From NCBI RefSeq assembly GCF_001403795.1, contig NZ_CXSU01000005.1:123019-187018 (forward strand): 64,000 nucleotides of DNA, given 5' to 3'. This DNA comes from Jannaschia donghaensis (GTDB lineage Bacteria > Pseudomonadota > Alphaproteobacteria > Rhodobacterales > Rhodobacteraceae). The number at the start of each line of letters is the position of its first letter. Positions within the stretch are counted from its first letter, which is position 1. Below, one piece after another: positions 239-43,194 of the stretch. The position numbers were made by a program, and so were the translations under genes. The notes under the pieces are model-generated. The model saw only the letters and a program-made list of their open reading frames with translations, was not told the DNA's origin and made no database searches.

Positions 239-1531
239 ATGCTAGTCTGGTTCCTGCCGCTTTTCCTTGTCTTGTTGATGATCGGCCTGCCGGTGTTCTT
301 CGCCCTGCTGGCGGCCCCTGGTTTCCTGTTGTGGGCCAACGGGCAGGAGAAGGACCTCGTCTTGCTCTATCGCAACACTTACAACGGGATGGACAGTTTT
401 CCGCTGATGGCGATCCCGTTCTTCATGCTGGCCGGAGAGATGATGAATCGCGGCGGCATCACTATGCGGCTGGTCGAATTCAGTCAGGCACTCGTCGGGC
501 ACTTCCGGGCCGGGTTGGCCCAGGTCAACATCCTGTCGTCGATGCTGTTCGCCGGGCTGTCGGGGTCGGCCGTCGCCGACACCTCGGCGTTGGGGTCGAT
601 GCTGATCCCGGCGATGGAGAAGGAAGGCTACACCCGCAAGTTCGCCGCCGCCGTCACCGCCGCATCGAGTGTGATCGGGCCGATCATTCCGCCGTCGGGC
701 ATCATGATCATCTATGCCTATGTGATGGAGCAGTCGGTCGCCGCATTGTTCCTGGCGGGGATCGTGCCAGGCGTTCTGGTGGGCGCGGGGCTGATGACTG
801 TGACGAATGTCATGGCGCGGCGCAATCCGGACGGCTTTCCGGGCCTGAAGCGGCGCGCGACATGGCCCGAAAAGGGGCGGGCATCGCTCAAGGCGTTTTT
901 CCCGCTGCTCACGCCGGTCATCATTTTGGGCGGGATCCTGGGCGGGGTGTTCACCCCGACGGAAGCCAGCGCCGTGGCGGTGGCCTATGCCGCCGTCGTG
1001 TCGTTGTTCATTCTGCGGGAAATGTCGTGGCGCGACCTGCCGGACGTTCTGGGCAAGGCGGCGCTCATCTCCTCGGTCGTTCTGTTACTGGTGGGGGCGG
1101 CGCTGGCGTTCAAGACGGTCGTCGCCCTGTCCCACGCGCCCGAGGCGCTGGCAGAGCTGATCCTGTCGCTGTCGGCCAATCCGCTGGTGCTGCTGTTGCT
1201 GATCAACCTGTTGCTGTTCATCGTGGGCATGTTTCTGGACGCGGGCCCTGCGATCATCATTCTGGGTCCGATCCTGGGGCCGATCTTCACCTCGCTCGGT
1301 GTCGATCCGGTGCATTTCGCGATCATCATGTCCGTCAACCTGACCGTCGGGCTGGCGACGCCGCCCATGGGGCTTGTGCTGTTCGTGGCGTCGTCCGTTT
1401 CGGGCGAGCGGGTGGAGACGATCGCGCGTGCGATCCTGCCGTTCCTGGCGGTCGAAGTCTTCGTCATCGGCCTGATCACCTACATCCCGGCCATTTCGCT
1501 GGCCGTGCCGCGCTTCTTCGGCTTTTTATGA
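239..1531 (+). CDS. TRAP transporter large permease (DctM family)
   Basis: 430-residue inner-membrane protein, the usual DctM size, with about a dozen hydrophobic segments over its whole length. It has the family signatures GLSGSAVADTSALG (about residues 106-119) and IGPIIPPSGIMIIYA (about 146-160), and a repeat of this pattern in the second half (GLATPPMGLVLFV). The large permease forms the sodium-coupled channel of a TRAP importer for an organic acid or similar anionic solute. I chose the ATG at 239 because it follows the small-permease stop by 14 bases and begins directly with the first helix; the frame is open further upstream but only inside the dctQ reading frame. Next to a sulfoquinovose-like catabolic operon, it may import that sulfosugar or a related sulfonate; this is inference from proximity. 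Confidence 0.93.
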   Translation: MLVWFLPLFLVLLMIGLPVFFALLAAPGFLLWANGQEKDLVLLYRNTYNGMDSFPLMAIPFFMLAGEMMNRGGITMRLVEFSQALVGHFRAGLAQVNILSSMLFAGLSGSAVADTSALGSMLIPAMEKEGYTRKFAAAVTAASSVIGPIIPPSGIMIIYAYVMEQSVAALFLAGIVPGVLVGAGLMTVTNVMARRNPDGFPGLKRRATWPEKGRASLKAFFPLLTPVIILGGILGGVFTPTEASAVAVAYAAVVSLFILREMSWRDLPDVLGKAALISSVVLLLVGAALAFKTVVALSHAPEALAELILSLSANPLVLLLLINLLLFIVGMFLDAGPAIIILGPILGPIFTSLGVDPVHFAIIMSVNLTVGLATPPMGLVLFVASSVSGERVETIARAILPFLAVEVFVIGLITYIPAISLAVPRFFGFL

Positions 1532-1560: not shown

Positions 1561-2628
1561 ATGAAACTGAGCAACATCCTCAAGGCGGGCGCATTGGCCG
1601 CGGTCACCGCGCTGCCGTCCATGGCAATGGCCGACGCCCATGCCATGAACATCCGCGCCACCGCCAATTCCAACGAAAACGATGAGGACTACGACGGTCT
1701 GGTCGTCTTCAAGAACTACGTCGAAGCCGCCAGCAACGGCGCGATCACGGTCGAGCTTTTCATCGGAACGCAGCTGTGCGGCGCGCCGGACGAATGTATT
1801 CAGGGGGTCGCCGACGGCACGATCGACGTTTATATTTCGACGTCTTCGGGTTTGGCGAACATCGTCCCGTCCGTCCAGATTTTCGATCTGCCCTATTTGA
1901 TGTCCGATGACCGGATCGCGGAAGAAGTGTTGACCTCGACCGATCTGACCCAGGATCTGCGCAGCAAGATTCTTGCCGATACCGGGGACACGGTGCGTCT
2001 GATGACGATCGGCAACACCGGTGGCTGGCGGAACTTTGCCAACACGCAACGCCGCATCGCCGAGCCGGGCGACATGGAGGGCCTGAAGATCCGCACGGTG
2101 GTCGCCGACCTGCCCCAGGAACTGGTCCGCGCGCTGGGCGCGTCGCCGACGCCGATCCCGTGGCCCGAATTGTTCACCTCGCTCCAGACTGGCGTGGTCG
2201 AAGGGTCGAAGAACGGCATCACCGATATCATGGGCATGAAGTTCCCCGACGCGGGCCTGCAGTATATGACGCTGGATGGGCACGCCTATATGGCGGCGCT
2301 CTGGATCATGAACAACGAGAAGTTTCAGTCGATGGACGATGACATGAAACGCGTCATCGTGGACGGTTTTGCGGCGCTGCAGCAGGCGACCTTCGCCAGC
2401 CCCAAGCGCAAGTCCATCGCCGCCTACGAGGAATTCGTGTCCGGCGGCGGCGACCTTTACGTGCCCACGCCCGAGCAGAAGACGGCGTTCCAGGAAGCGG
2501 CGGCCCCAGTCTACGACTGGTTCGCGTCGAACGTGGACGGCGGTGAGGAAATGCTCGCCAATTTCCGCGCCGCCATTGCCTCGGCCGAGGAATCGGTGGG
2601 CGCGCGCCGCGACGCCGACCTGAACTGA
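1561..2628 (+). CDS. TRAP transporter substrate-binding protein (DctP family)
   Basis: 355-residue periplasmic solute receptor of a TRAP transporter. A Sec signal peptide occupies about residues 1-24 (cut near AMA/DAHA). The mature part has the DctP pattern: GDMEGLKIRT with the substrate-contacting arginine near residue 179, then FTSLQTGVVEGSKNG. It starts 29 bases after the large permease, with a purine-rich stretch (AGGGAGAGA) ahead of the ATG, and ends at a hairpin terminator, so dctQ-dctM-dctP form one transcription unit. Family members bind carboxylates, sulfonates and ectoines; the sequence alone does not fix the ligand. The nearby sulfosugar genes suggest a sulfonated ligand. Confidence 0.93.
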   Translation: MKLSNILKAGALAAVTALPSMAMADAHAMNIRATANSNENDEDYDGLVVFKNYVEAASNGAITVELFIGTQLCGAPDECIQGVADGTIDVYISTSSGLANIVPSVQIFDLPYLMSDDRIAEEVLTSTDLTQDLRSKILADTGDTVRLMTIGNTGGWRNFANTQRRIAEPGDMEGLKIRTVVADLPQELVRALGASPTPIPWPELFTSLQTGVVEGSKNGITDIMGMKFPDAGLQYMTLDGHAYMAALWIMNNEKFQSMDDDMKRVIVDGFAALQQATFASPKRKSIAAYEEFVSGGGDLYVPTPEQKTAFQEAAAPVYDWFASNVDGGEEMLANFRAAIASAEESVGARRDADLN

Positions 2629-2633
2629 TGACA

Positions 2634-2666
2634 GGCGGGGGCATCCGATCGGGCGTCCCCGCCCTT
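2634..2666. terminator. Hairpin between TRAP operon and truncated potassium-transporter gene
   Basis: GGCGGGG at 2634-2640 pairs with CCCCGCC at 2657-2663, followed by CTTAC. It lies between two converging genes and could end transcription of both. The T tract is short, so it is a weaker intrinsic terminator on the + strand. Confidence 0.55.
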
Positions 2667-3714
2667 ACGACACCGGCAGCGTGGTTTCGTCCGTATCGGG
2701 CGGTCCGATGAAGCGCGCCGCCAGCAGCCAGGCCAGCGTGAGCGGGCCGATCCGACCGAGAAACATGAGCAAACACAGTATCGCCCGTTCCGTGCCCGAC
2801 GCCGCCTGCGTGACCCCGGACGTCAGACCGACGGTGCCAAAGGCGGAGGATGCCTCGAACAGGGTGTCGGCAAAGGTATGATCGCCCAATCCCCAGATCA
2901 CCAGTGTGGCCACGAAGACCAGGACCAGTGCCACGCCGACCAACTGCGCGATGCGCAGCAGGCTTTGTGCGGGAATGCGCCATTTGCCCGCGTGCAGCGG
3001 CCCGCCGCGCCGCGCCGAGATGCCGATTGCCACGATCAGCAGCAGGACGGTCCCGACCTTGAGCCCGCCCCCCGTGGACGTGGCCCCGGCCCCGATCAGC
3101 ATCAGGACAATGGTCAGCGCCTGTCCGCCCCCGGTCAGCCCATCGACGCCGACACCGTCGAACCCGGCGGTGCGCGGCGTCAGCGCCTGGAACAAAGGCA
3201 GCCCTGCTCGCGCGCCCTCGCGGTGGGTGCCCAGCGTGCGGGGGTTGGACCACTCGATCAGGGCGAAGCCTGCCCAGCCCAGCACGATAAGCAGGGCCGT
3301 GCCGACCAGGACCACGCGGGTGTGAAGGTGCAGTGCATCGCGCCCCAGGATGCGGCCACGCAGGTTGGAAATCGCCGCAAAGCACAGGCCGCCGACCACG
3401 AACAGAGCCGCCGTGACGACAAGCAGCGCCGCCGGGGCCCCCGCGACACCGCCGATGATTGTAAAACCCGCATTGTTGAAGGCGGAACCGGACTGGAAAA
3501 CCGCGTGCCACAGCCCGGCCCAGCCGCTGTCGCGCATCAGCCCCGGAGCGAGGGCCAGAACGCCGAGCGCCTGCACCGATCCGGCGAATGCCAAAACGCG
3601 CAGCGCGAGCGACAATGGCGTGTTGCCGGCCAAAACCGGCAGGTCGGCGCGAAACAAGCTGCTGTTTGCGCCGCCGTTGAGAAGGCCGAGCGCCAGAACA
3701 CCGAAGGTGATCAA
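2665..3714 (-). pseudogene. N-terminally truncated TrkH/KtrB-type potassium transporter
   Basis: The 349-residue product is membrane protein throughout and matches the KtrB/TrkH family from the second half of repeat one onward. The second, third and fourth pore loops are visible: SAFNNAGF, TPRTAGFDGV and SAFGTVGLTSG. The first pore loop and its two flanking helices (about 100 residues) are missing. The homologous frame starts at LGLITFG, the point where full-length proteins read G-L-G-F-M-T-F-G, and is cut by an in-frame TAG at 3727-3729, which is the stop codon of the neighbouring SEL1 gene. The only near start is a TTG at 3714 without a clear ribosome binding site. A channel with three of four filter segments should not conduct, so I read this as a decaying remnant left by a deletion or rearrangement. 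Confidence 0.8.
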
Positions 3715-3726
3715 GCCCAGGTCATC

Positions 3727-4194
3727 CTAGCGGAATGGATACATCCAGACGCGGTAGTCGGCGATCAACTCGTGCGCCTTGGCGATCTGGTCGGACGACA
3801 TCTTGCGGATCACCTCCTCCTGGCTGATCGCGGCGTCCGGGTCGCCGCCGATCGCGCTAAGCGCGTACCACATATAGGCGCGGATCAGGTCCGGGGCGGG
3901 CATGCCCAGGCCGACTTCGTAGTACCAGCCGACGCCGGACTGCGCGCCGGGGTGCCCCTTCATCGCGCTGCGCAGGTACCAGTCGAAGGCGCGCACGGGG
4001 TCACGCTCGACCCCCAGGCCAAGGGCGTACATCACACCGATCAATTCCTCGGCCTCGGCGTTGCCGGAGCGGGCGGCGGGGGCAAGGGCGGCGCGCGCGG
4101 CGACGTAATCGCCGGCGTCCATCAGGTCGCGCGCCTTTTCCAGATCGGCCGCGGCGGGCGTTGCAAGGCACAGCAGCAGGGCAAGGGTCTTCAT
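3727..4194 (-). CDS. SEL1-like repeat (TPR-like) exported protein
   Basis: 155 residues with a signal peptide (MKTLALLLCLATPAAA, then DLEKARDLM). The body contains SEL1 repeats: NAEAEELIGVMYALGLGVE with RAFDWYLRSAMKGHPGAQ, then GVGWYYEVGLGM with RAYMWYALSAIGGDPDA. Such helical repeats act as protein-protein adaptors, here probably in the periplasm. The ATG at 4194 has a good ribosome site (AAGGAGA, spacing 5). Its start faces the di-heme cytochrome gene, so the two divergent genes share almost no spacer. Downstream it abuts the truncated potassium-transporter frame. Function unknown. Confidence 0.85.
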   Translation of the reverse strand: MKTLALLLCLATPAAADLEKARDLMDAGDYVAARAALAPAARSGNAEAEELIGVMYALGLGVERDPVRAFDWYLRSAMKGHPGAQSGVGWYYEVGLGMPAPDLIRAYMWYALSAIGGDPDAAISQEEVIRKMSSDQIAKAHELIADYRVWMYPFR

Positions 4195-4215
4195 CGCATT
4201 CTCCTTGCCGCCACC

Positions 4216-5478
4216 TTGGCCGTGGCGGCGGGTGCTGCCAAGGCACAAGAGGTGCCGTTCCACCCCTACGAGGAGGCCCGTGCAGCAGTTGGCCAACTGC
4301 TGTTCTATGACCCGATCCTGTCGGGCAACCGCAACATCAGCTGCGCGACCTGTCACCACCACGACACCTTTTCCGCCGATGGTGTGTCGCTGGGCATCGG
4401 CGAGGGGGGCGTGGGCATCGGGCCGAAACGGCGCGTGGTCGAGGGGGGCATCGTCAAGCGCGTGCCGCGCAACGCACAGGGTCTGTGGAATGTGGGGGCG
4501 GTCGAATTCACGACGTTCTTTCACGACGGGCGGGTGTCGTTGTCCGACGACTACGGCACCGGCTACGACAGTCCGGCGGAAGAATGGCTGCCAAAAGATC
4601 TGCCCAATCTGCTGGCGGTGCAGGCCCTTTTCCCGCTGACCGCGCAGTTCGAAATGGCGGGCAACGTGGGCGAGAACGAGGTCATTGGCGCGGTCAGCGA
4701 CCGCATCGACCGGGGCTGGCCGATCCTGGCCAAACGGGTGCGGGGGGTGCCGGCCTATGCCGAGGCTTTGACGGCGGCCTTTGGATTGGAACATTCGGAA
4801 GACATCGGCATCGCGCATATTGCTATCGCGCTGGCCGATTTCATGAACTCCGAATGGCGCAGTCTGGATGCGCCCTACGACGCGTGGCGCGCCGGGACGG
4901 GCGATCTGACGCCTGCGCAACACCGTGGGCGCGACCTGTTCTTTGGCAAGGGCGATTGCGCCTCGTGCCATGCCGGCCCGCTGTTCACCGACCACGATTT
5001 CCATGCCATCGCCCTGCCGCCCTTCGGGCCGGGCCGCACCCGGCGGTGGGACCCTGTGCCGCGTGACGTGGGCCGCATGGCGGAAACGGACGATCTGGCC
5101 GATGCCTACCGCTTTCGTACGCCGTCTTTGCGCAATGTGACGCTGACCGCGCCCTACGGTCATAACGGGGCCTATCCCACGCTGGCGGGCATCATTCGGC
5201 ACCACGCTGACCCGGCGCGCGGGTTGCGGGACTGGCAGCCGACCCTTGCGAACCTGCCCCACGCGCCCTGGCTGTCCGAGATCGACTTCGTGATCCGGTC
5301 GGACGCGCGGGAGATGGCGCGGGTTGCGATGCATTCGGACATTCAGCCCGTTGATCTTTCGGAAACGGAGATCGCCGATCTGGTCGCCTTTCTCGGGGCG
5401 TTGGAGGGGACGAAAAGCAAATACGGCCGTCTTGGCGTGCCGGATGCCGTTCCGTCGGGTTTGGCGGTAGATCGATGA
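4216..5478 (+). CDS. Di-heme cytochrome c peroxidase / MauG-like protein
   Basis: About 420 residues, periplasmic, with two heme-binding motifs: CATCH near residue 43 and CASCH near residue 248, the layout of bacterial di-heme peroxidases (CcpA) and MauG enzymes. The C-terminal half has RFRTPSLRNVTLTAPYGHNG, a family signature. These proteins reduce hydrogen peroxide or carry out radical oxidation of protein partners. The start is uncertain: the hydrophobic export segment reads back through ILLAATLAVAAGAAKAQ, but the only ordinary start codon is a TTG at 4216, which clips that segment; an ATT at 4198, about ten bases after AAGGG, would give a better signal peptide. Its stop overlaps the next gene start (ATGA, 5475-5478), so it is translationally coupled to a sugar kinase, an unusual pairing. 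Confidence 0.85.
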   Translation: MAVAAGAAKAQEVPFHPYEEARAAVGQLLFYDPILSGNRNISCATCHHHDTFSADGVSLGIGEGGVGIGPKRRVVEGGIVKRVPRNAQGLWNVGAVEFTTFFHDGRVSLSDDYGTGYDSPAEEWLPKDLPNLLAVQALFPLTAQFEMAGNVGENEVIGAVSDRIDRGWPILAKRVRGVPAYAEALTAAFGLEHSEDIGIAHIAIALADFMNSEWRSLDAPYDAWRAGTGDLTPAQHRGRDLFFGKGDCASCHAGPLFTDHDFHAIALPPFGPGRTRRWDPVPRDVGRMAETDDLADAYRFRTPSLRNVTLTAPYGHNGAYPTLAGIIRHHADPARGLRDWQPTLANLPHAPWLSEIDFVIRSDAREMARVAMHSDIQPVDLSETEIADLVAFLGALEGTKSKYGRLGVPDAVPSGLAVDR

Positions 5479-6317
5479 CGCGCCTTCTGGTCTGTGGCAT
5501 CGCCGTGATGGATTACGTCCACCGGGTCGACGTGCTGCCGATGACCGAAGGGAAACACCGCAGTACATCGTTCGACCGGATCGGCGGCGGCTGCGCTGCG
5601 AATGCCGCCGTCGGGGCCGCGCGGCTGGGGGCGCATGTCACCCTGATGGCGCGTCTGGGGATGGATACGACGGGGGACGAACTGGCCGCGATGTTGGCCG
5701 GTCGAGGCATCGAGACCGCTCTGACGCGGGGCGGCCGCACGCCGTTGTCGTCGATTCTGATCGATGGACGCGGAGAGCGGATGATCGTCAATTTCCCCGG
5801 TGCGAACCTGCCGACCGATCCGCCGCCCGTGCCGAATACCGACGTCGTCCTGTCCGATTGTCGTTGGCCCGAAGCCGCCGAGGCCGTGCTGCATGCGGCC
5901 AAGACCAACGGCATCCCCAGCGTTCTGGACGGCGAGAAATACACGCCGGCCCCCCTTGCCGCGCTGGCCGATCACGTGGTGTTCAGCGCACCCGGTCTGC
6001 GCGATTTCTCCGGCATAGACCAGCTGGACAAGGCGCTGGCCGATGCGTCCGTCCGCTTGCCTGGCCATGTGGCCGTGACCGACGGGCCGGACGGGGTGCG
6101 TTGGGGCGACGGGCTGCACGTGCCGGCCCCGCGCATCACGCCGGTGGACACGCTGGGGGCCGGTGACCTGTGGCACGGGGCCTTCGCCCTTGCGCTGGGG
6201 CAGGGTCGCGACCGGGTCGCCGCAAGCCGGTTCGCCAACGCCGCCGCCGCGTTGAAATGCACGCGCGCGGGCGGCTGGGATCATTATCCGACACTTCACG
6301 AACTGGAAACCGCATGA
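5475..6317 (+). CDS. PfkB-family kinase, probable 6-deoxy-6-sulfofructose kinase (YihV-like)
   Basis: 280 residues. The ribokinase/PfkB fold is shown by GGGCAANAAVGAARLGAHV near the N-terminus and DTLGAGDLWHGAF (about residues 225-237), where the last Asp of GAGD is the catalytic base. By recall it aligns over its length with E. coli YihV: CGIAVMDYVHRVDVLP, RGERMIVNFPG, DVVLSDCRWPEAAEAV, VLDGEKYTPAPL and ALKCTRAGG all have close counterparts. YihV phosphorylates 6-deoxy-6-sulfofructose with ATP. The gene overlaps the di-heme gene upstream and the aldolase gene downstream by four bases each. A general fructose or ribose kinase is the alternative, but the aldolase and isomerase partners favour sulfofructose. 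Confidence 0.8.
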   Translation: MTRLLVCGIAVMDYVHRVDVLPMTEGKHRSTSFDRIGGGCAANAAVGAARLGAHVTLMARLGMDTTGDELAAMLAGRGIETALTRGGRTPLSSILIDGRGERMIVNFPGANLPTDPPPVPNTDVVLSDCRWPEAAEAVLHAAKTNGIPSVLDGEKYTPAPLAALADHVVFSAPGLRDFSGIDQLDKALADASVRLPGHVAVTDGPDGVRWGDGLHVPAPRITPVDTLGAGDLWHGAFALALGQGRDRVAASRFANAAAALKCTRAGGWDHYPTLHELETA

Positions 6318-7342
6318 CGATCACCCTCACCCCCGGCAAACAGATGGGCTTTCGCCGCATGTCCGACGCCGCCGGGCGTTTCAAGATGACGGCCGTCGAT
6401 CAACGTCCCCCCATCAAGACGGCGGTCGAGGCGCATCGCGGCGGTCCACATTGGGAAGATGTGGCGCGGGTGAAGACCGAATTGCTGCGCGCGTTGCAGC
6501 CGTCGTCCACGGCCATGCTGATGGATCCGCACTATGCCATCCCCCATGGCTGGCAGGTATTCGACCCCGCGAAAGGCCTGATCGTGACGCTGGAGGATTC
6601 GCAGTTTCGCGACACCGGGCAGGGTCGGTTCAGCGCGGAAATCGACGATTGGTCGGTGGGAAAGATCAAGCGGATGGGCGGCGATGCGGTCAAGGTGCTG
6701 GCCTGGTACCGGCCCGACATTTCGGACGAAGTGCGCGCGGCGCAGCATGATTTCGTCAAGCGCACCGGAGAGGCCTGCGCGCGCTTCGACATCCCGTTCT
6801 TGTTCGAGCTGCTGGTCCATCCGATCGAGAGCGACGCCGAGCAGACCAGCGAATACACCGAGATGGCGACCAAACACGCCGATCACGTTCTGCAATCCGT
6901 CGATGCGTTTGCCGGCGCGGATTACGGTGTGGATGTCTTCAAACTGGAAAGCCCGGTTCCGGCCAAGGGCATCACAGGGGGCGATGCGCAGGTGCAGGCC
7001 TTGTTCGACGAGATAGGCAAACTGGCGGCGCGGCCGTGGGTGATGCTGTCGGCGGGCGCGGGCAAGCCGGACTTCAAGACGGTCCTGGAATACGCCTATG
7101 CCGCTGGGGCGTCGGGGTATCTGGCGGGCCGCGCGATCTGGCTGGATGCCTTTGCCGCCTATCCGGACTGGGAGGCTATGGCGGCAGGCCTGAGGCGCGA
7201 CTCGGTGCCCTACATGGAGGATCTGAACGCCCTGACCGATGCCCATGCGACGCCGTGGCACGAGCATGCCTGCTATGGCGGCAGGGGGCTCGATTTCATC
7301 GATCCGACCGCCGGCTTCCGGCAGGGTTACGGAGACATCTGA
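6314..7342 (+). CDS. LacD/YihT-type class I aldolase, probable sulfofructose-phosphate aldolase
   Basis: 342 residues of the tagatose-1,6-bisphosphate aldolase / YihT family. Landmarks are FKMTAVDQRPPI at the start of the barrel, VKVLAWYRPD, DVFKLESPVP with the probable Schiff-base Lys near residue 210, then RPWVMLSAG and AGASGYLAGRAIW. YihT splits 6-deoxy-6-sulfofructose 1-phosphate into dihydroxyacetone phosphate and 3-sulfolactaldehyde. The start ATG overlaps the kinase stop (ATGA), as expected for consecutive steps of one pathway. The alternative is a tagatose-1,6-bisphosphate aldolase, but no tagatose or galactose genes are nearby. Confidence 0.85.
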   Translation: MTITLTPGKQMGFRRMSDAAGRFKMTAVDQRPPIKTAVEAHRGGPHWEDVARVKTELLRALQPSSTAMLMDPHYAIPHGWQVFDPAKGLIVTLEDSQFRDTGQGRFSAEIDDWSVGKIKRMGGDAVKVLAWYRPDISDEVRAAQHDFVKRTGEACARFDIPFLFELLVHPIESDAEQTSEYTEMATKHADHVLQSVDAFAGADYGVDVFKLESPVPAKGITGGDAQVQALFDEIGKLAARPWVMLSAGAGKPDFKTVLEYAYAAGASGYLAGRAIWLDAFAAYPDWEAMAAGLRRDSVPYMEDLNALTDAHATPWHEHACYGGRGLDFIDPTAGFRQGYGDI

Positions 7343-8667
7343 TGCGGATCGGGATTCTACCGCTGGGGCGACCCACGTTCGATGTGCCGTTTGCCGAAGA
7401 GAAGCTGGCGGCGATGTTGGCCGTGCTGGATGCGTCGGACCATGAGATCGTCGGGCCGCGAACCTTGCTCATGGAGGCCGATGCCGCCGCGCAGGAGGCG
7501 ACGCGCGATGTGGACGTCCTGTTGATATTGCAGGTGACCTTCACCGACGCCGCCTTCGCCACACGCGCCGCCGTCGCCCATCGGGGTCGCGTCGCGATCT
7601 GGGCCGTGCCGGAACCGCGGGTGGGCGGTCGGCTGCGGCTCAATGCGTTCTGCGGGCTGAACCTTCTGTCGCATGCGTTGGGTTTGAACGATCGTCGCTT
7701 CACTTGGGCGTACGGCGATCGGATCGACATCGACGCGCTGCTGACCGGGCCGGAGCTTACGCCCAAACGCGGCGCGCCGACCGACGCCGCGCCCCGAGCC
7801 ATCAACCGCGATCTGAAGATCGGGCGCATCGGCGCGCACCCTGTGGGTTTCGACACCTGCGCTTATGACAAGGTCGACCTTGCGAGGCTGACCGGCGCGC
7901 AGGTGACCGAGCTGGAGCTGCCGGACCTGTTCGACCGCGCGCGCAGCTTGTCAGCCGAGGCCGTCGAACCCTATGCCGCCAAGGCTGCCGACCTGGGCGG
8001 GCTGGACACGCTCGACAAGGGGGAGTTGGACCGGTCCCTTCGATTGGCGGGCGCGCTGGATCAGTTGAAGTCCGAGTATCATTTCGATGCCATGGCAATC
8101 CGCTGCTGGCCCGAGACCTTCACCGAATACGGCGGCGCGGTCTGCGGACCCGTATCGATGCTGGGCGAGGCGCGCACCCCCTGCGCCTGCGAGGCGGATG
8201 TCTACGGCGCGGTGACCCAGGCGATCCTGCAGGATGTGACCGACGCGCCCGTTTTTCTGGCCGATCTGGTGGACATGGACGCACAGACGGGGGTCGTCTG
8301 GCACTGCGGTCAGGCCCCGGTGTCGATGGCGGCACGCGCGCCCGACGCGACCGTGCACACCAACCGCAAACAGGCTCTGTTGCTGGAATTTCCCCTAAAG
8401 GGAGGGCGTGTAACGCTGTTCCGGCTGAGCCAGGCCTACGGCGCGCCACAGGTCGTGATCGCGACCGGGCAGGTCATCGACGCGCCCATGGCCTACACCG
8501 GAACCAGCGGGACGGTGCGCTTCGACCGTGGTGCCGATGCCGTCTGCGCCGACGTGATGGCGTCGGGGTTGGAGCATCATATGGCGCTGGCCTACGGCGA
8601 CCACGCCGATGCGCTGCGCGGCGTGGCCGCGGGCCTGGGCGTGCCGGTGCTGGAGCTGGGGGCATGA
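7342..8667 (+). CDS. L-fucose isomerase-fold protein, probable sulfoquinovose isomerase
   Basis: 441 residues with the two-part architecture of the L-fucose/L-arabinose isomerase superfamily. The C-terminal half carries the likely metal-site residues in the usual order: Glu in CACEADVYGA, Asp in LVDMD and His in VWHCGQAP; the WPETFTEYG segment precedes them. Members are Mn-dependent aldose-ketose isomerases. In the known sulfo-EMP2 route a protein of this superfamily, unlike the YihS isomerase of E. coli, converts sulfoquinovose to sulfofructose; the kinase and aldolase directly upstream make that the best reading. The start ATG shares one base with the aldolase stop (TGATG). Another aldose remains possible as substrate. 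Confidence 0.75.
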   Translation: MRIGILPLGRPTFDVPFAEEKLAAMLAVLDASDHEIVGPRTLLMEADAAAQEATRDVDVLLILQVTFTDAAFATRAAVAHRGRVAIWAVPEPRVGGRLRLNAFCGLNLLSHALGLNDRRFTWAYGDRIDIDALLTGPELTPKRGAPTDAAPRAINRDLKIGRIGAHPVGFDTCAYDKVDLARLTGAQVTELELPDLFDRARSLSAEAVEPYAAKAADLGGLDTLDKGELDRSLRLAGALDQLKSEYHFDAMAIRCWPETFTEYGGAVCGPVSMLGEARTPCACEADVYGAVTQAILQDVTDAPVFLADLVDMDAQTGVVWHCGQAPVSMAARAPDATVHTNRKQALLLEFPLKGGRVTLFRLSQAYGAPQVVIATGQVIDAPMAYTGTSGTVRFDRGADAVCADVMASGLEHHMALAYGDHADALRGVAAGLGVPVLELGA

Positions 8668-9755
8668 TCCGTTACGGCCTGATCGGGGCGGGCATGATGG
8701 GGCAGGAGCATATCCGCAACATCGCCCTTCTGGACGGGGCGATGGTCGCCGCCGTGGCCGACCCGGACGAAGCTATGCGCGCATCGGCCATGGCGGTGTC
8801 CGGCGGGCAGGGTTTCGCGGATGCCGAGGCGCTGATCGCCGCGAACGTCGCGGATGTCTTCCTGATCGCGTCGCCCAACGACATGCACGCCGGCATGGTT
8901 CAGCGTCTGTTGGCGACGGACAAACCCATCCTGGTGGAGAAGCCGCTGGCGACGACGACCGCCGATTGCCGCGATCTGCTGACCCAAGCGCGGGGACGGG
9001 TGGCACCGGTCTGGGTGGCGATGGAATACCGGTACATGCCGCCCGTCCAACGGCTTATGCAGATGATAGATCAGGGCGCGGTGGGAACACCGCGCATGGT
9101 ATCGATCCGGGAACACCGCTTTCCGTTCCTGCAGAAGGTCGACGATTGGAACCGGTTCAACGCGCGCACGGGCGGCACGCTGGTCGAGAAATGCTGCCAT
9201 TTCTGGGATCTAATGCGCCTTATGCTGCGGGCCGATCCGGTGCGGGTCTATGCAAGCGCGGGGGTGGATGTGAACCACCGCGACGAACGCTATGCCGGGG
9301 GCATTCCGGACATCGTCGACAATGCCTATGTGGTCGTCGATTTCGCCAACGGAACCAGAGGAATGCTGGATCTGTGCATGTTTGGCGAAGGGTCGCATTG
9401 GCAGGAATCGATTGCCGTCACGGGCCCCCAAGCCCGGGTGGAGGCGTTCATTCCCGGTCCGGCCCGATTTGCGCCCGACGGCAAGCCGCGCGAGGCGGAA
9501 GTCGTCAGCAGCATCAGGGCATCGAAGGAGGAGGTGAGGGAGGTGGTGCACACACCGCCCGAACTTCTGATTGCCGGCGACCACCACGGCTCCACCTTCT
9601 ATCAGCACCAGCGATTCACCAATCTGGTGCGCGCCGGAACAGGGGTGCCCGAAGTATCGCTTGAAGATGGCTATTGGTCCGTCCTTGTGGGCGAGGCGGC
9701 GGAGGAATCCGCGCGGTCAGGCCATGCGATCGACCTGACGGGACGGGGGGCCTAG
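8664..9755 (+). CDS. Gfo/Idh/MocA-family protein, candidate NAD-dependent sulfoquinovosidase
   Basis: 363 residues. The N-terminal Rossmann domain has GLIGAGMMGQEHIRNI, and EKPLA marks the catalytic-lysine loop typical of Gfo/Idh/MocA proteins; MEYRYMPPVQRLMQMID follows. Most family members are sugar oxidoreductases, but some (GH109, and the NAD-dependent sulfoquinovosidases classed as GH188) use bound NAD to hydrolyse glycosides by a transient oxidation. In an otherwise complete sulfoquinovose operon with no GH31 sulfoquinovosidase in the window, the glycosidase role is attractive but is inference. A plain sugar dehydrogenase is the alternative. The start overlaps the isomerase stop (ATGA), and a repeat element follows it. 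Confidence 0.75.
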   Translation: MIRYGLIGAGMMGQEHIRNIALLDGAMVAAVADPDEAMRASAMAVSGGQGFADAEALIAANVADVFLIASPNDMHAGMVQRLLATDKPILVEKPLATTTADCRDLLTQARGRVAPVWVAMEYRYMPPVQRLMQMIDQGAVGTPRMVSIREHRFPFLQKVDDWNRFNARTGGTLVEKCCHFWDLMRLMLRADPVRVYASAGVDVNHRDERYAGGIPDIVDNAYVVVDFANGTRGMLDLCMFGEGSHWQESIAVTGPQARVEAFIPGPARFAPDGKPREAEVVSSIRASKEEVREVVHTPPELLIAGDHHGSTFYQHQRFTNLVRAGTGVPEVSLEDGYWSVLVGEAAEESARSGHAIDLTGRGA

Positions 9756-9770
9756 GGGCTTCTTCTGGTG

Positions 9771-9804
9771 AAAAATACCTCGGGAGTGTGAGGGCGGTGC
9801 CCTC
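9771..9804. repeat. Short intergenic hairpin repeat, copy 1
   Basis: AAAAATACCTCGGGAG (9771-9786) is followed by a perfect hairpin GAGGGC-GGT-GCCCTC (9790-9804). A second, inverted copy lies at 13158-13200. Elements of this shape are common between genes in Rhodobacterales. It sits between the Gfo/Idh/MocA gene and the next dehydrogenase gene. Confidence 0.6.
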
Positions 9805-9823
9805 ATGCCTGAATGGAGACGAG

Positions 9824-10726
9824 ATGATACTGATAACCGAATTCATGGACGAGGCGTGGGTCGACTGGCTGCGGGACCGTTGCGAAATAGACTACCAACC
9901 CGACCTGCCCGACTTCCCCGAGGAGCTGGCCGAGAAGGCGCAGATGGCGCAGGCCCTGATCGTGCGCAACCGGACGCAGGTGCGCGGTGATCTGCTCTAT
10001 GCCGGGTTTTCCTGTGTCGGACGGCTGGGTGTCGGCCTCGACAATATCGATATGGAGGGATGCGCGGAACGGGATATCGCGGTCTTTCCGGCCACGGGCG
10101 CGAACACGCTGTCGGTGGCGGAATACGTGGTGACGACGGCGGCGATGCTGTTGCGCGGCGCGTACGCGATGCGCCCGGCGATGGAGGCTGGCGACTGGCC
10201 CCGTGGACCGGCCGGACAGGGGCGGGAGATCGCGGGCAAGACGCTGGGTTTGATCGGATACGGTGAAATCGCGCGGGACGCGGCGCGGCTGGGCACGGCG
10301 CTGGGCATGAAGGTTCTCGCCTCTGACCCCTATGCCGACGACTTTCCCGGCGCGATGGAGGGGACCGAAGAAGAGGTGCTGACCACCGCGGACGTCATAT
10401 CGCTTCATGTGCCGTTGACGGACGAAACGCGGGGCATGATCGACGCGGATGTCATCGCCGCCATGAAACCCGGTGCAGTGGTCATCAATGCGGCACGGGG
10501 CGGTGTGGTAGACGAGGCGGCGCTGTGCGACGCGCTGACGTCCGGCCATCTGGGCGGGGCCGCGCTGGATACTTTCGCGTCCGAGCCGCTGGGCACCGAT
10601 CATCCGTTCGCGGGCGTGCCCAACCTGATCCTGACGCCGCATATCGGCGGCGTGACGGCGGAGGCGAATGCCCGCGTGTCGGAAATGACGGCACGCAAGG
10701 TGGCTGCGCACCTGGGACTGGCCTAG
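9824..10726 (+). CDS. slcC: Phosphoglycerate dehydrogenase-like protein, probable (S)-sulfolactate dehydrogenase (SlcC-like)
   Basis: 300 residues of the D-isomer-specific 2-hydroxyacid dehydrogenase family. Visible are GRLGVGLDNIDM, the NAD-binding GLIGYGEIARDAARLG, INAARGGVVDEAAL with the substrate Arg, and TPHIGGVTAEAN with the catalytic His. The opening ILITEFMDEAWV and the compact length resemble SlcC, the 3-phosphoglycerate-dehydrogenase-like enzyme that oxidises (S)-3-sulfolactate to sulfopyruvate. In this operon it would act after sulfolactaldehyde oxidation. The ATG at 9824 has GGAGACGAG ahead of it. Phosphoglycerate dehydrogenase itself is less likely because no serine pathway or ACT domain is present. 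The symbol is by resemblance and context only. Confidence 0.65.
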   Translation: MILITEFMDEAWVDWLRDRCEIDYQPDLPDFPEELAEKAQMAQALIVRNRTQVRGDLLYAGFSCVGRLGVGLDNIDMEGCAERDIAVFPATGANTLSVAEYVVTTAAMLLRGAYAMRPAMEAGDWPRGPAGQGREIAGKTLGLIGYGEIARDAARLGTALGMKVLASDPYADDFPGAMEGTEEEVLTTADVISLHVPLTDETRGMIDADVIAAMKPGAVVINAARGGVVDEAALCDALTSGHLGGAALDTFASEPLGTDHPFAGVPNLILTPHIGGVTAEANARVSEMTARKVAAHLGLA

Positions 10727-10746
10727 GTGCCGGGGTCGAGGATGCC

Positions 10747-11700
10747 ATGGACCTGAACCGCTATATCATCACAGGGAATGGCCTGACGGCGACCTTCACC
10801 GAATGGGGGGCCGCGCTGGTCGATTTGCGTCTGGACGGGGTGGATCATCCGCTGGTCCTGGGCCTAGCCGATCTGGCCGATTATGCGGCCGGGCACTCGA
10901 ACTACATGGGGGCGACAGCGGGGCGGTTTGCCAACCGGATCGGGGACGCGCGGTTCACGCTGGACGGGGTCGAGCATCGGCTGGATGCGAATTTCCAGGA
11001 TCGCCACACGCTGCACGGCGGATCGAAGGGGACGGGCAAGCGCGTGTGGGACGTCGTGGACCACGGGGCGGATACCATCGCTTTCGCCATCGACCTGGCG
11101 GACGGCGAGATGGGGTTCCCCGGCGCGATGCGGATCGAGGCGCGGTTCACCTGTGCGCCGGGACCCTGCCTTCGGATCGCGTATTCCGCCACCTGCGCGG
11201 CCCCCACCATCGTCAATCTGGCGCATCACACCTATTGGAACCTGGACGGCAGCGACGATGTGTCGGGCCACGCCTTGACGGTGCAGGCGGATCGATACCT
11301 GCCACTGGACGACGGGATGATCCCGACCGGCGTGGCGGAGGTTGCGGGCACAGAATTCGATTTCCGGGCCGGGCGGATATTGCCCGGCGGCGACCTGCTG
11401 GACCATAACCTTTGCCTGTCGGATGGACAGGTGCCGCTGCGCGACGTCGCGGTGTTGCGCGTGCGTGGTCTGTCGATGGCGGTGGCGACGACGGAGCCGG
11501 GATTGCAGGTCTATGACGGGGCCAAGCTGCGCACGCCGGTGCCGGGAATCGGGGGGCGCACGTACCGCGCCCATGCCGGTGTCGCCCTTGAGCCGCAGAA
11601 TTGGCCCGACGCACCCAACCATGACGATTTTCCGGCCTGCGTTCTGCGGCCTGGCGAGACATATGAACAGGTGAGCACCTTCACCTTTGCGAAAGGATAG
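10747..11700 (+). CDS. Aldose-1-epimerase (mutarotase), probably for sulfoquinovose
   Basis: 317 residues of the GalM-type mutarotase fold. The family signatures are FANRIGDARFTLDG, HTLHGGSKG, the His of NLAHHTYWNLDG and GLQVYDGAKL, with a C-terminal AHAGVALEPQNWPDAPNH containing the catalytic Glu. Mutarotases speed exchange between alpha and beta sugar anomers. Sulfoquinovose operons often carry a dedicated mutarotase because the glycosidase releases one anomer and the isomerase may need the other. The start lies 20 bases after the preceding stop with GAGGA upstream, and the aldehyde dehydrogenase gene follows after three bases. Confidence 0.9.
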   Translation: MDLNRYIITGNGLTATFTEWGAALVDLRLDGVDHPLVLGLADLADYAAGHSNYMGATAGRFANRIGDARFTLDGVEHRLDANFQDRHTLHGGSKGTGKRVWDVVDHGADTIAFAIDLADGEMGFPGAMRIEARFTCAPGPCLRIAYSATCAAPTIVNLAHHTYWNLDGSDDVSGHALTVQADRYLPLDDGMIPTGVAEVAGTEFDFRAGRILPGGDLLDHNLCLSDGQVPLRDVAVLRVRGLSMAVATTEPGLQVYDGAKLRTPVPGIGGRTYRAHAGVALEPQNWPDAPNHDDFPACVLRPGETYEQVSTFTFAKG

Positions 11701-11703
11701 CAG

Positions 11704-13149
11704 ATGGCGTTTCAGGACTGGATGAAGCAGGCAAACCTGATCGGGGGGGAATGGGTCGGGGCCGACAGCGGCGAGACGATCGACGTGACCAATCCGGTGG
11801 ACGGATCGGTAATCGGGACGATCCCCAAGGGCGGCAAGGCCGAGACCGAGCGCGCGATTTCGGCGGCGACCGAGGCGTTTCCGGGCTTCCGCGACATGTC
11901 GTTGATGGATCGGTGCAACCTTTTGTGGAGGCTGCACGATGCGCTGATGGACAACCAGAAGGAGCTCGCCGAACTGCTGACCGTCGAGATGGGCAAGCCG
12001 ATGGCTGAGTCGATGGGCGAGATCGCGATCGGCGCGCAATACGTCCGCTGGTTCGCCGAAGAAGCGCGCCGCGCCAAGGGCGAGATCGTGCCGGCGGGCG
12101 TGAACGGGCGCCGCATTCTGGTGACAAAACATGCCATCGGGGTGGTCGGCATGATCACGCCCTGGAACTTTCCCAGCAGCATGTTGGCCCGCAAGGTGGC
12201 CCCCGCATTGGCCATGGGCTGCACCGTGGTGGCCAAACCCGCGACGGCGACGCCGTATTCCGGTCTGGCATGGGGCGCGCTGTGTGAAGAAGCGGGGTAT
12301 CCCAAGGGCGTCATGAACGTCGTCACCGGATCGGCCAAGGACATCTCCAAGGCGATGATGGAGAGCTTTGCGGTCCGCAAGATCACCTTCACCGGGTCCA
12401 CTGAGGTGGGCAAGGAGTTGATGCGCGGGGCCGCCGATACGGTCAAGAAGGTGTCGATGGAGTTGGGCGGCAATGCCCCCTTCGTGGTGTTCGACGACGC
12501 CGATATCGACAAGGCCATCGACGGCGCGATGGTGTCGAAGTTCCGCAACGCGGGCCAGACCTGCGTCTGCGCCAACCGCATCTATGTGCAGGCGGGGATC
12601 CATGACGCCTTCGTTGCGAAGCTGAAGGCCCGGACCGAGGCGATGAAGGTCGGCGACGGGCGCGAGGACGGGGTCGAGCAGGGTCCGATGATCGACATGG
12701 ACGCCGTCGAGAAGGTCGAGGATTTCGTGGCCGACGCCAAGGCCAAGGGCGGCGAGATCGTCACCGGCGGGGATCGGCACGAGAAGGGTGGCACGTTCTT
12801 CCAGCCCACGATCATCACGGGGGCGACGCAGGACATGAAGTTCGCCCATGAGGAAATCTTCGGACCCATCGCCCCGGTGTTCAAGTTCGAGACCGAGGAG
12901 GAGGCGATCCGTCTGGCCAACGATACGGTCTATGGTCTGGCTTGCTATGCCTACACGTCGGATCTGGGGCGGGCGTTTCGCCTGAACGAAGGGCTGCAAT
13001 ACGGGATGATCGGCATCAATTCGGGCTTGATCACCACCGTGGAAGCCCCGTTCGGCGGGGTGAAGGAAAGCGGGCTTGGCAAGGAAGGCGGATCGCAGGG
13101 TCTGGAGGATTACGTCGAGACGAAATACGTCTGTATCGACGGGATCTGA
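11704..13149 (+). CDS. SSADH-type aldehyde dehydrogenase, probable sulfolactaldehyde dehydrogenase
   Basis: 481 residues of the NAD(P)-dependent aldehyde dehydrogenase superfamily, closest in pattern to succinate-semialdehyde dehydrogenase (GabD). The catalytic Cys is in NAGQTCVCANR (near residue 288) and the general-base Glu in MELGGNAPFVVFDD; TPWNFPSSMLARK and FTGSTEVGKELM bind the cofactor. Sulfolactaldehyde dehydrogenases of sulfoquinovose pathways belong to this group and yield 3-sulfolactate. The gene is last in the + strand operon, three bases after the epimerase. A true succinate-semialdehyde role cannot be excluded from sequence alone, but no GABA genes accompany it. Confidence 0.85.
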   Translation: MAFQDWMKQANLIGGEWVGADSGETIDVTNPVDGSVIGTIPKGGKAETERAISAATEAFPGFRDMSLMDRCNLLWRLHDALMDNQKELAELLTVEMGKPMAESMGEIAIGAQYVRWFAEEARRAKGEIVPAGVNGRRILVTKHAIGVVGMITPWNFPSSMLARKVAPALAMGCTVVAKPATATPYSGLAWGALCEEAGYPKGVMNVVTGSAKDISKAMMESFAVRKITFTGSTEVGKELMRGAADTVKKVSMELGGNAPFVVFDDADIDKAIDGAMVSKFRNAGQTCVCANRIYVQAGIHDAFVAKLKARTEAMKVGDGREDGVEQGPMIDMDAVEKVEDFVADAKAKGGEIVTGGDRHEKGGTFFQPTIITGATQDMKFAHEEIFGPIAPVFKFETEEEAIRLANDTVYGLACYAYTSDLGRAFRLNEGLQYGMIGINSGLITTVEAPFGGVKESGLGKEGGSQGLEDYVETKYVCIDGI

Positions 13150-13210: not shown

Positions 13211-14155
13211 TCAGACCGGGTTCGGGGGGGTGCGACCTTCGGCGATGGCGACCGCGTTCTCCAGCGCCATCCGGCCCATGTCTTCGCGCACTTCCAATGC
13301 GGCGGTGCCCAGATGGGGCAGCAAGACGACGTTTTCGAGCGCCTTAAGCGCGTCGGGCACGGTGGGTTCGCGTTCGTAGACGTCAAGGCCCGCGCCACCG
13401 ATCGCCCCGGATTGCAGCGCTTCGATCAATGCGGCTTCGTCCACCACATCGCCGCGTGCGATGTTCACCAGGATGGCGTGCGGCTGCATCGCGGACAGGG
13501 CTTCGGCATCGATGATGTGGCGCGTTTCGGCGGTGGCGGCGAGGGCGGTGACGACGACGTCGGCCTGCGTGCAGACGTCGGCGACGCTGGCCAGTTGATC
13601 GGCCCCGTCGATGCTTTTGTCAGAGCGGTTCCAGAAGACCACCTTCATCCCGAACCCGGCGGTGCAGCGTTTGGCGATGGCCTGCCCGATGCGACCCATG
13701 CCGATGATTCCGACCGTCTTGCCCGACACATGCATCCCCAGCATCTGCACCGGGTGCCAGCCGTGCCAGTCGCCCGCGCGGACCATCCGCTCCCCCTCGC
13801 CGGCGCGGCGGGCGGCCATCAGGATCAGGGTCATGGCGGTGTCCGCCGTGGCGTCGGTGACGGCACCGGGCGTGTTGGTGACGACCAGACCGACGGCGCG
13901 GGCGGCGTCCACGTCGATATGGTTGAAGCCGACACCGAAATTGGCAAGGCCTTTCGCGCGAATGTCGCCGGTGAAGGCATCGGCGGTGAAAGCGTCGCCC
14001 AACGTGGGCAGAACGACGTCATGATCCGCGAGGGCGGCGCGACATTCGTCGACGCCCATCGGTCGGGTGGCGTCGCGGCAGGTAACGTCGAAATGCTCGG
14101 CAAGGGCGGCCATCACGCTGTCAGGCAGGGCGCGGGACACGAAGAGTTTTTTCAA
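13211..14155 (-). CDS. D-2-hydroxyacid dehydrogenase (glyoxylate/hydroxypyruvate reductase type)
   Basis: 314 residues of the D-isomer-specific 2-hydroxyacid dehydrogenase family. The NAD site is VGIIGMGRIGQAIAKRC, the substrate Arg is in VNIARGDVVDEAAL, and the catalytic His is in LLPHLGTAALEVRED. The pattern FGVGFNHIDVDAAR and GLDVYEREP is like GhrB/GyaR glyoxylate reductases, which reduce glyoxylate or hydroxypyruvate in the cytoplasm. It starts at a TTG that overlaps the CsaA stop by four bases (TTGA). It lies on the strand opposite the sulfosugar operon and points toward it, so a role there, for example on sulfopyruvate, is only a possibility. Confidence 0.85.
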   Translation of the reverse strand: MKKLFVSRALPDSVMAALAEHFDVTCRDATRPMGVDECRAALADHDVVLPTLGDAFTADAFTGDIRAKGLANFGVGFNHIDVDAARAVGLVVTNTPGAVTDATADTAMTLILMAARRAGEGERMVRAGDWHGWHPVQMLGMHVSGKTVGIIGMGRIGQAIAKRCTAGFGMKVVFWNRSDKSIDGADQLASVADVCTQADVVVTALAATAETRHIIDAEALSAMQPHAILVNIARGDVVDEAALIEALQSGAIGGAGLDVYEREPTVPDALKALENVVLLPHLGTAALEVREDMGRMALENAVAIAEGRTPPNPV

Positions 14156-19424: not shown

Positions 19425-19702
19425 TGTCCGTCTTCTCGGCAATCGTCGTCTTCATGATGATCTGGGCCATGGTCTTCATGCTGGGGCTGCAGATTGGCCA
19501 GAACACGCAGGGCGATCAGGGTAAGGTTTCGATGGGCACCCATGCATCGACACCGGCGGACCCGATCCGCGTCTGGCGGCGCATCGCCTGGGCCACCGGG
19601 ATCACATTGGTTCTCTGGATCCCGCTGATCTGGTTCATAACCAGCGGCAACCTGACGATCGACGATCTCCGCCGGTGGACCGGGCGCGAGGTTCTGGGCT
19701 AG
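19424..19702 (+). CDS. DUF1467 small membrane protein
   Basis: 92 residues with two transmembrane helices: AIVVFMMIWAMVFMLGLQIG at the start and ATGITLVLWIPLIWFITSG near the C-terminus, separated by a polar loop with the DPIRVWRRIAWATG motif. This fits DUF1467, an inner-membrane family of unknown function confined mainly to alphaproteobacteria. It is translationally coupled to mce, and its stop overlaps that of the converging EI24-domain gene by four bases (CTAG). Confidence 0.85.
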   Translation: MSVFSAIVVFMMIWAMVFMLGLQIGQNTQGDQGKVSMGTHASTPADPIRVWRRIAWATGITLVLWIPLIWFITSGNLTIDDLRRWTGREVLG

Positions 19703-20972: not shown

Positions 20973-21060
20973 TTTTATCCTTTTCCGGGCTGATCCCCAT
21001 GTCGCGCGCGTGCGCCGGGGTTTCAAGACCGGGGCAGGTGCGCGAGGGCCCAGAAGGTTC

Positions 21061-43071: not shown

Positions 43072-43194
43072 CTTCTCTCCCCGTGTTGTGGGGGCGAGTC
43101 TAGCAGGCCCGCAGGCGGGGGGGAGGGGGCTACCGCCGCGCGGGATTCCCTGCTATCCGCGCTGCAAATCCAGACACGACCGAAAGTATTCCCC

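Follow-up and report, generated by a model that had tools for sequence, protein, structure and literature searches.

Several bacterial systems have been described for the use of sulfoquinovose (SQ), a sulfur-containing sugar found in the membranes of plants and algae. The sulfo-Embden-Meyerhof-Parnas (sulfo-EMP) pathway of Escherichia coli involves the proteins YihQRSTV. The sulfo-EMP2 pathway of Firmicutes is defined, in the available text of PMC9594981 and PMC12890257, by the isomerase SqvD together with SqiK (PF00365) and SqiA (PF01116). Hybrids of sulfo-EMP1 and sulfo-EMP2 are in print for a Yersiniaceae bacterium (PMC9594981), for Vibrio (PMC13372026) and for Proteobacteria generally (PMC12890257), and a glycoside hydrolase family 188 (GH188) gene and cluster of Jannaschia faecimaris are named in the Figure 5 legend of PMC10755693. 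The locus described here lies in a 64,000-nucleotide stretch of the genome of Jannaschia donghaensis (contig NZ_CXSU01000005.1, positions 123,019 to 187,018; hereafter the window). Seven of its genes very probably form a sulfoquinovose operon. The best explanation, which we hold with high confidence, is that a hybrid sulfo-EMP operon degrades sulfoquinovosyl glycerol and SQ. Its gene content, protein families, kept active-site residues and recurrent neighbourhood are observed, and from these we infer the substrates and the order of the steps. As far as the available text of these papers goes, proteobacterial hybrids and the J. faecimaris cluster are already known, and the unexpected part is an upstream pair of genes for a MauG-like di-haem protein and a Sel1-repeat protein.

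The seven genes occupy positions 5475-13149 of the + strand, with neighbours joined by short overlaps or gaps, and belong in operon order to the Pfam families PfkB, DeoC/LacD, Fucose_iso_C, GFO_IDH_MocA, 2-Hacid_dh, Aldose_epim and Aldedh. A first-pass annotation of the window had drawn the same set, and its place, order and strand are borne out by the open reading frame coordinates and the Pfam families. The E. coli pathway and the operon share the same proposed intermediates, a YihV-type kinase, a PF01791 class I aldolase and an aldose epimerase. The window, however, has an SqvD-like isomerase in place of YihS, a GH188 protein in place of the GH31 enzyme YihQ, an oxidative end in place of YihU, and a tripartite ATP-independent periplasmic (TRAP) transporter in place of the YihO carrier. 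With the Firmicutes sulfo-EMP2 pathway it shares an isomerase of the SqvD/SftI kind with the FucI fold and a proposed oxidising sulfolactaldehyde dehydrogenase, but its kinase matches only PF00294, not PF00365, and its aldolase only PF01791, not PF01116. Sulfo-EMP2 membership was therefore rejected, and with it the first-pass label "sulfo-EMP2-like": the required SqiK and SqiA are replaced, and only the isomerase is SqvD/SftI-like. Judged from its predicted proteins, the operon pairs this isomerase with a kinase of the sulfo-EMP type and an aldolase of class I, which makes it a sulfo-EMP hybrid. The Yersiniaceae and Vibrio hybrids, in the available text, use SqiA, whereas the window has a class I aldolase and, in addition, GH188, an SlcC-type gene, the TRAP transporter and the MauG/Sel1 pair.

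The strongest single piece of evidence for sulfoquinovose as the substrate is the Gfo/Idh/MocA protein, which by its sequence is an NAD+-dependent sulfoquinovosidase of GH188 and is predicted to cleave SQ glycosides in an NAD+-dependent manner. Its best solved relatives are 8zn9 (E 2.3e-121), 8qc3 (E 2.9e-107) and 8qc2 (E 2.4e-105); after these three GH188 structures the next relative is an inositol dehydrogenase, at E 2e-20. We take 8qc2 and 8qc3 to be the SqgA structures of PMC10755693. The available text of that paper gives Lys107, Tyr136, His193, His321 and Glu189 of ArSqgA as contacts to SQ, and Arg166, Leu170 (through its backbone) and Lys172 as contacts to the sulfonate, with residue numbers that match the 8qc3 chain at one constant offset. 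All eight residues are kept in the aligned window protein. The gene had been listed in the first-pass annotation, where its role as a sulfoquinovosidase was overlooked.

The kinase has YihV (7ag6) as its best match in the PDB (E 3.5e-57, 197 bits, versus E 1.7e-22 and 83 bits for the best ribokinase) and is 41.6% identical to YihV of E. coli. Lys27, Asn109 and Arg138 of YihV, presumably sulfonate contacts, are kept in the window kinase and absent in RbsK; among 16 orthologues of the kinase, Lys27 and Arg138 are found in 16 and Asn109 in 13. By these scores and residues the protein is a predicted sulfofructose kinase of the YihV type. The aldolase belongs to PF01791, and its lysine 210 aligns with the VDVLKVE motif of LacD; its family and the aligned lysine mark it as a class I enzyme, for which sulfofructose-1-phosphate aldolase activity is predicted. 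The isomerase matches PF02952, the family of SqvD, at 39 bits, over the gathering threshold of 29.3. Its predicted structure has a mean predicted local distance difference test (pLDDT) score of 90.5, and when the PDB was searched with this model, matches 1-41 were all arabinose or fucose isomerases, with template modelling (TM) scores of 0.51-0.59 and a root mean square deviation of about 23 A. These values point to the same fold with the domains arranged differently, and the protein is taken to represent a remote branch of the SQ-isomerase family.

The grouping of these genes recurs in other genomes. Loci around relatives of the isomerase numbered 134, and the best 80 of them, some cut by contig ends, were scored for gene presence by tblastn at E<=1e-15. 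The kinase was found in 76, the Gfo protein in 73, the aldolase in 72, the TRAP components DctM and DctP in 67 each, the di-haem protein in 61, the epimerase in 53, the 2-hydroxyacid dehydrogenase in 52 and the aldehyde dehydrogenase in 46. All ten genes tested occur together in 24 loci, including that of J. faecimaris (L058). J. helgolandensis is another named species with the operon. Such recurrence argues that the grouping is not due to chance. The combination of an SlcC-like enzyme, a TRAP transporter and a di-haem protein had been called unrecognised in the first pass, yet TRAP and di-haem genes recur in this arrangement across the loci. The loci span Rhodobacterales (Jannaschia, Litoreibacter, Shimia, Tropicimonas and others) and Hyphomicrobiales (Hoeflea, Stappia, Ahrensia, Zhengella), and three come from metagenome-assembled genomes labelled Gammaproteobacteria. 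The window isomerase shares 90% identity with the J. marina protein and 69-85% with its counterparts in the remaining named Jannaschia loci. Orthologues of the isomerase (E<=1e-100, at least 47% identity) are present in 32 of 394 genomes of the family, sampled at nearly one per genus (393 genera), and 30 of the 32 genomes lack SmoC. Three loci (L078, L079, L112) have the di-haem protein, aldolase, isomerase and GH188, with no match to the kinase.

A more distant row of genes occurs on plasmid pZZM402 of Zymomonas mobilis ZM4 (L141:128-9907) and comprises a PF01116 class II aldolase, an aldose epimerase, an isomerase, a GH188-like protein, major facilitator superfamily and TonB proteins, and a dehydrogenase of the succinate-semialdehyde dehydrogenase (SSADH) type. 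Its SqvD-like isomerase is 37.5% and its GH188-like protein 45% identical to the window proteins, and the row is likely an SQ cluster in an ethanol-producing model bacterium. When 100 loci, including some places fetched twice, were searched with the Zymomonas PF01116 protein, one (L096) matched; as it has a class I aldolase too, a class II enzyme was rejected as the stand-in where class I is lacking. No YihS match was found at E<=1e-8 in the same 100 loci, the whole genome not being searched for YihS.

In the proposed pathway the TRAP transporter would import the sulfosugar, GH188 would release SQ using catalytic NAD+, and the aldose-1-epimerase would mutarotate it. The SqvD-like isomerase would convert SQ to sulfofructose and the YihV-type kinase sulfofructose to sulfofructose-1-phosphate, which the LacD-like class I aldolase would split into dihydroxyacetone phosphate (DHAP) and (S)-sulfolactaldehyde. 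The aldehyde dehydrogenase would oxidise the latter to (S)-sulfolactate, and the SlcC-type dehydrogenase would take (S)-sulfolactate to sulfopyruvate. Relatives would complete the pathway with ComDE, leading to sulfoacetaldehyde and Xsc, or with ComC and SuyAB. The final step of the operon is supported by the neighbours of the SlcC-like gene: ComD and ComE genes follow it directly in 15 of the 80 loci, and a SuyB gene precedes it in six, five of which also have a ComC gene after it. ComD and ComE of these relatives exceed the NCBIfam cut-offs; the Pfam families of SuyB and ComC are GD_AH and Ldh_2, and a SuyA-like reading frame was seen by eye before SuyB in Hoeflea halophila. A set of SlcC, ComC and SuyAB is described for Paracoccus in the available text of PMC12421959. 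Placed by its neighbours, the 2-hydroxyacid dehydrogenase is best read as a proposed (S)-sulfolactate dehydrogenase of the SlcC type. Apart from the pathway label, the earlier proposal of an SQ operon leading through DHAP and sulfolactaldehyde to sulfolactate and sulfopyruvate is upheld by the GH188 residues, the kinase near YihV, the match, though well below its cut-off, to the SQ-isomerase model, and the ComDE or SuyB/ComC genes of relatives. A gene near the operon of Aliiruegeria haliotis (L102:979-1854) encodes a reductase that shares 61% identity with YihU of E. coli, which suggests a reductive end in some strains.

The gene directly upstream of the operon, which overlaps the start of the kinase gene by four bases, encodes a di-haem protein. 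Its start codon is uncertain, with homology clear from about position 4264. Two CxxCH motifs, invariant in 19 sequences, and the match to PF03150 place the predicted protein in the di-haem cytochrome c peroxidase/MauG superfamily. Its three closest NCBIfam models are the MauG, MbnH and His-Xaa-Ser-associated families, and it falls below the cut-off of each: it reaches 246 bits of 340 for TIGR03981, and 121 bits of 443.85 for TIGR03791, the MauG of tryptophan tryptophylquinone biosynthesis, no search having been made for other mau genes. The closest solved relative is 6e1c, a "Di-heme enzyme". A plain peroxidase role is possible, because bacterial cytochrome c peroxidases match almost as well (130 bits) as the best hit (138 bits). 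The predicted structure (mean pLDDT 65.4) was not used for a fold search. The three named di-haem families belong to the same superfamily, but the fixed neighbour of the window protein is a Sel1-repeat protein. The Sel1 gene lies divergently beside the di-haem gene in all 61 named loci that have either, with the matched stretches 49-332 bases apart, and in each of the 80 loci the two genes are either both present or both missing. Across the 61 loci the Sel1 protein shares 64-85% identity with the window copy, and 81 Sel1 sequences share near-invariant Trp72, Trp90, Trp109 and Trp150 and a YxxWxYPFR end.

The pair is also found with a different catabolic pathway. The SQ monooxygenase (sulfo-SMO) clusters of the Roseobacter group share GH188, TRAP DctQMP, the MauG-like protein and Sel1 with the window, but have a flavin reductase, an aldo/keto reductase and a SmoC-type monooxygenase where the window has its sulfo-EMP core. 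From the 79 family genomes with the di-haem gene and without the isomerase, 19 loci were taken from among the high-scoring matches, plus one contrast locus with a 49% identical paralogue. Sel1 is present in 19 of these 20 loci (all except the contrast), and DctP and DctM in 17; these DctP proteins are 68-76% identical to the window DctP, compared with at most 30% for its nearest paralogue in its own genome. Recurrent neighbouring genes are a flavin reductase in 18 (the contrast included), an aldo/keto reductase in 16, a luciferase-like (LLM-class) monooxygenase in 15, a GntR regulator in 11 and GH188, as scored by tblastn, in nine. The LLM monooxygenase has its best PDB matches in 7olf (E 3e-208) and 7oh2 (E 4.3e-207), which we take to be structures of the SQ monooxygenase SmoC, the next match standing at 1.7e-59. 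These loci are accordingly read as sulfo-SMO clusters.

In the 394 family genomes, SmoC (E<=1e-140) is present in 163 and the isomerase in 32, with both in two. Orthologues of the di-haem protein were counted at 53% identity or more (108 genomes), a cut set after viewing the list; among the matches listed just below it, at 50-52%, paralogues are interspersed with additional copies from SmoC genomes. Of the 193 genomes that have at least one of the two pathways, 105 hold such an orthologue, as do 3 of the 201 that have neither (Fisher p 3.4e-37, a value that ignores shared descent); among these three is G334, a genome only 74% complete. By pathway, the orthologue is present in 78 of the 163 genomes with SmoC and in 29 of the 32 with the isomerase, and in at least 77 of the 108 the gene lies within 15 kb of SmoC or the isomerase. 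In a tree of 41 MauG-like sequences (one candidate shorter than 380 residues was dropped) the copies from SMO contexts form one branch (support 99/97) beside the copies of Jannaschia, Litoreibacter and Thalassobacter (93/92), which fits one switch between the EMP and SMO contexts. In a tree of 25 DctP sequences (fragments shorter than 330 residues were dropped) the contexts are mixed, near to shuffled labels (35 of 500 shuffles were as low).

From these observations, the MauG-like and Sel1 proteins probably act in the periplasm as an accessory to SQ use and assist more than one pathway. Because import and GH188 precede the point at which the pathways split, the likeliest place for the pair is a stage that both pathways share: the capture, transport or preparation of SQ or SQ glycosides, or protection there. 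MbnH presumably modifies MbnP oxidatively, and we assume that MauG likewise modifies a partner protein. That related di-haem families include such enzymes, together with the fixed Trp-rich Sel1 partner, leads to the idea that the MauG-like enzyme modifies Sel1. We tentatively propose, as a possibility with the odds still against it, that the pair is an undescribed, pathway-independent periplasmic part of SQ use in Rhodobacteraceae and relatives, in which the di-haem enzyme would oxidatively modify the Trp/Tyr-rich Sel1 protein, and the protein so modified would be needed for the capture or processing of SQ or its glycosides ahead of sulfo-EMP or sulfo-SMO. The literature searched holds no description of a di-haem/Sel1 link to sulfoquinovose, though MauG or Sel1 alone with sulfoquinovose was not searched and an earlier mention in the Roseobacter SQ literature is possible. 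Such a di-haem protein goes unmentioned in the SQ papers that were searched by word, nor do the words transporter, heme, cytochrome or peroxidase occur in the main text of PMC10755693. The pair could instead be a mere passenger, kept near SQ genes by descent within one family. The counted genomes indeed all belong to one family, a single change of context would account for the MauG tree, and 31 of the 108 MauG genes have no place seen within 15 kb of either pathway; but the 394 genomes represent 393 genera, and the unlinked copies also stay in genomes with an SQ pathway (105 of 108 overall), so we regard the passenger explanation as unlikely.

Several observations weigh against the hybrid sulfo-EMP reading of the operon. 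No class I aldolase match was found in eight of the 80 loci, no kinase in four and no GH188 in seven. In seven of the eight aldolase-less loci the isomerase directly follows the kinase (L063:9138-9980, L109:8953-10001, L064, L104, L119, L128 and L132), and five of the eight (Silicimonas, Boseongicola) are also without GH188. As those seven have no class II aldolase match either, their aldolase would be encoded elsewhere or be of another kind. A tree of the kinase with the PfkB proteins of its own genome and of E. coli has long branches that do not resolve its placement, and was set aside in favour of the residues. The aldolase is only 28% identical to YihT and scores 70 bits with it, compared with 125 bits for LacD tagatose-bisphosphate aldolases and 291 bits for 8tnf. 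The first-pass annotation had held that kinase and aldolase grouping firmly with tagatose or ribose enzymes would refute its reading; the aldolase does score that way, while the scores of the kinase favour YihV over ribokinase. The isomerase reaches 245.7 bits in the NCBIfam SQ-isomerase model NF048012, far short of the equivalog cut-off of 700, and a sequence search of the PDB gave no match for it. The aldehyde dehydrogenase matches 8c54 at E 2e-159 but the SSADH structure 3jz4 better, at E 1.3e-171. It keeps the catalytic and proposed sulfonate-binding residues of RlGabD, namely R171, R289, C295, E261 and the WNF motif (residues from the available text of PMC10599462); these, the sulfonate pair R171/R289 among them, are also present in the aligned succinate-semialdehyde dehydrogenases, so that the residue match is not decisive for a sulfolactaldehyde dehydrogenase. 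SuyB and ComC of the relatives lie below the cut-offs of their best NCBIfam models and are named by family and position.

The fate of sulfopyruvate in J. donghaensis itself is a further difficulty. Searches of its genome (3.48 Mb in 13 contigs, 99.99% complete) gave no match above cut-off for ComE, ComD, ComC or CuyA, the last with weak matches only (29.9 of 289.4 bits). SuyB of a relative matches PF04295, which makes a search with this family a fair test for SuyB; the sole SuyB-type match (L004) is a fused SAF and GD_AH protein whose gene lies downstream of a frame resembling a TRAP permease; it was taken for a UxaA-like protein and rejected as SuyAB. An xsc gene above cut-off is present, with a PTA_PTB (phosphate acetyltransferase) gene adjoining it, and ComE occurs in 14 of 20 genomes of the genus. 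With ComDE, ComC and SuyB not found, sulfopyruvate has no known exit here; sulfopyruvate or sulfolactate would then be excreted, or leave by a route not found in these searches.

An operon for another sulfosugar, such as sulfofucose degraded via sulfotagatose and its 1-phosphate, would account for the FucI/AraA fold of the isomerase and for an aldolase nearer to LacD than to YihT, both of which would suit galacto-configured substrates. For Paracoccus, the available text of PMC12421959 considers an EMP-like sulfofucose route built on PF00294 and PF01791 enzymes, which showed no increase there. According to the available text of PMC9594981, SqvD enzymes of this same fold isomerise SQ. The SQ-contacting residues of GH188 are kept in the window protein, including E189, which contacts the C4 hydroxyl group. 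A different sulfosugar, such as sulfofucose, is an improbable substrate. Inositol catabolism also uses a PfkB kinase, a LacD-type aldolase, a Gfo/Idh dehydrogenase and an aldehyde dehydrogenase, and the Gfo protein matches the IolG model at E 3.4e-32, but an operon for inositol or an ordinary sugar is very improbable and was rejected on the scores of the kinase, which is nearest to YihV, and of the Gfo protein (356-408 bits with GH188 structures versus 76 bits with the inositol dehydrogenase 4hkt), and is further opposed by the ComDE, ComC and SuyB-type genes that adjoin relatives and by the MauG/Sel1/TRAP genes common to clusters of the SQ-monooxygenase type.

Table 1. Features of the proposed hybrid sulfo-EMP locus of J. 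donghaensis, in window coordinates; functions are predicted.
Feature	Position	Strand	Evidence
TRAP large permease DctM	239..1531	+	NCBIfam TIGR00786, 426 bits, above cut-off
TRAP solute-binding protein DctP, proposed binder of SQ/SQ glycosides	1561..2628	+	PF03480, E 2.3e-55
TrkH-like gene between DctP and Sel1, probably a truncated copy	2665-3714	-	Only C-terminal part of model matched (179-488 of 502)
Sel1-repeat protein, signal peptide by eye, divergent from di-haem gene	3730..4194	-	PF08238, E 5.8e-15
MauG/CCP-family di-haem protein, signal peptide by eye	4198..5478	+	PF03150, E 4.5e-28
Sulfofructose kinase, YihV type, PfkB family	5475..6317	+	Best PDB match 7ag6 YihV
Sulfofructose-1-phosphate aldolase, class I, LacD/PRK12858 subfamily	6314..7342	+	NCBIfam NF009498, 317 bits, above cut-off
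SQ-sulfofructose isomerase, SqvD/SftI-like, FucI/AraA fold	7342..8667	+	NCBIfam NF048012, E 7.6e-73, below cut-off
NAD+-dependent sulfoquinovosidase GH188 (SqgA), Gfo/Idh/MocA	8664..9755	+	8zn9, E 2.3e-121; SQ-contacting residues
Proposed (S)-sulfolactate dehydrogenase, SlcC type, 2-hydroxyacid dehydrogenase family	9824..10726	+	PF02826; neighbours in relatives
Aldose-1-epimerase, proposed SQ mutarotase	10747..11700	+	PF01263, E 3e-68
Proposed sulfolactaldehyde dehydrogenase, SlaB/GabD type	11704..13149	+	8c54, E 2e-159

The features of the locus are collected in Table 1. Just upstream of the window (stretch L001) are a DeoR-type regulator, identified by Pfam, and a DctQ-like reading frame seen by eye. 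About 8-10 kb upstream lie an IclR-type regulator and an ATP-binding cassette (ABC) transporter ATPase (L001:5228-7094), and the family of this ATPase recurs near SQ loci of Jannaschia and Litoreibacter. A second D-2-hydroxyacid dehydrogenase gene (13211-14155, - strand) is convergent with the end of the operon, with a similar gene at the same spot in several Jannaschia loci. Further away are genes for a SulP-type sulfate permease (42895-44805, + strand) and a CysZ/EI24-type protein (19699-21000, - strand), possibly for sulfur export or uptake, with no tie to the operon. A scan for promoters and terminators gave fewer sites than in shuffled sequences.

Taken with the sulfo-SMO clusters, the hybrid sulfo-EMP operon suggests that marine SQ degraders keep a common module for import, hydrolysis and the periplasm and swap the catabolic core. 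Such a swap would change the sulfur product from sulfite (sulfo-SMO) to C3 sulfonates (sulfo-EMP hybrid). The tight link of MauG and Sel1 adds a haem redox protein that is not explained by the SQ pathways considered. A survey based on SmoC only would overlook the route described here in 30 of the 394 family genomes sampled, which have the isomerase without SmoC.

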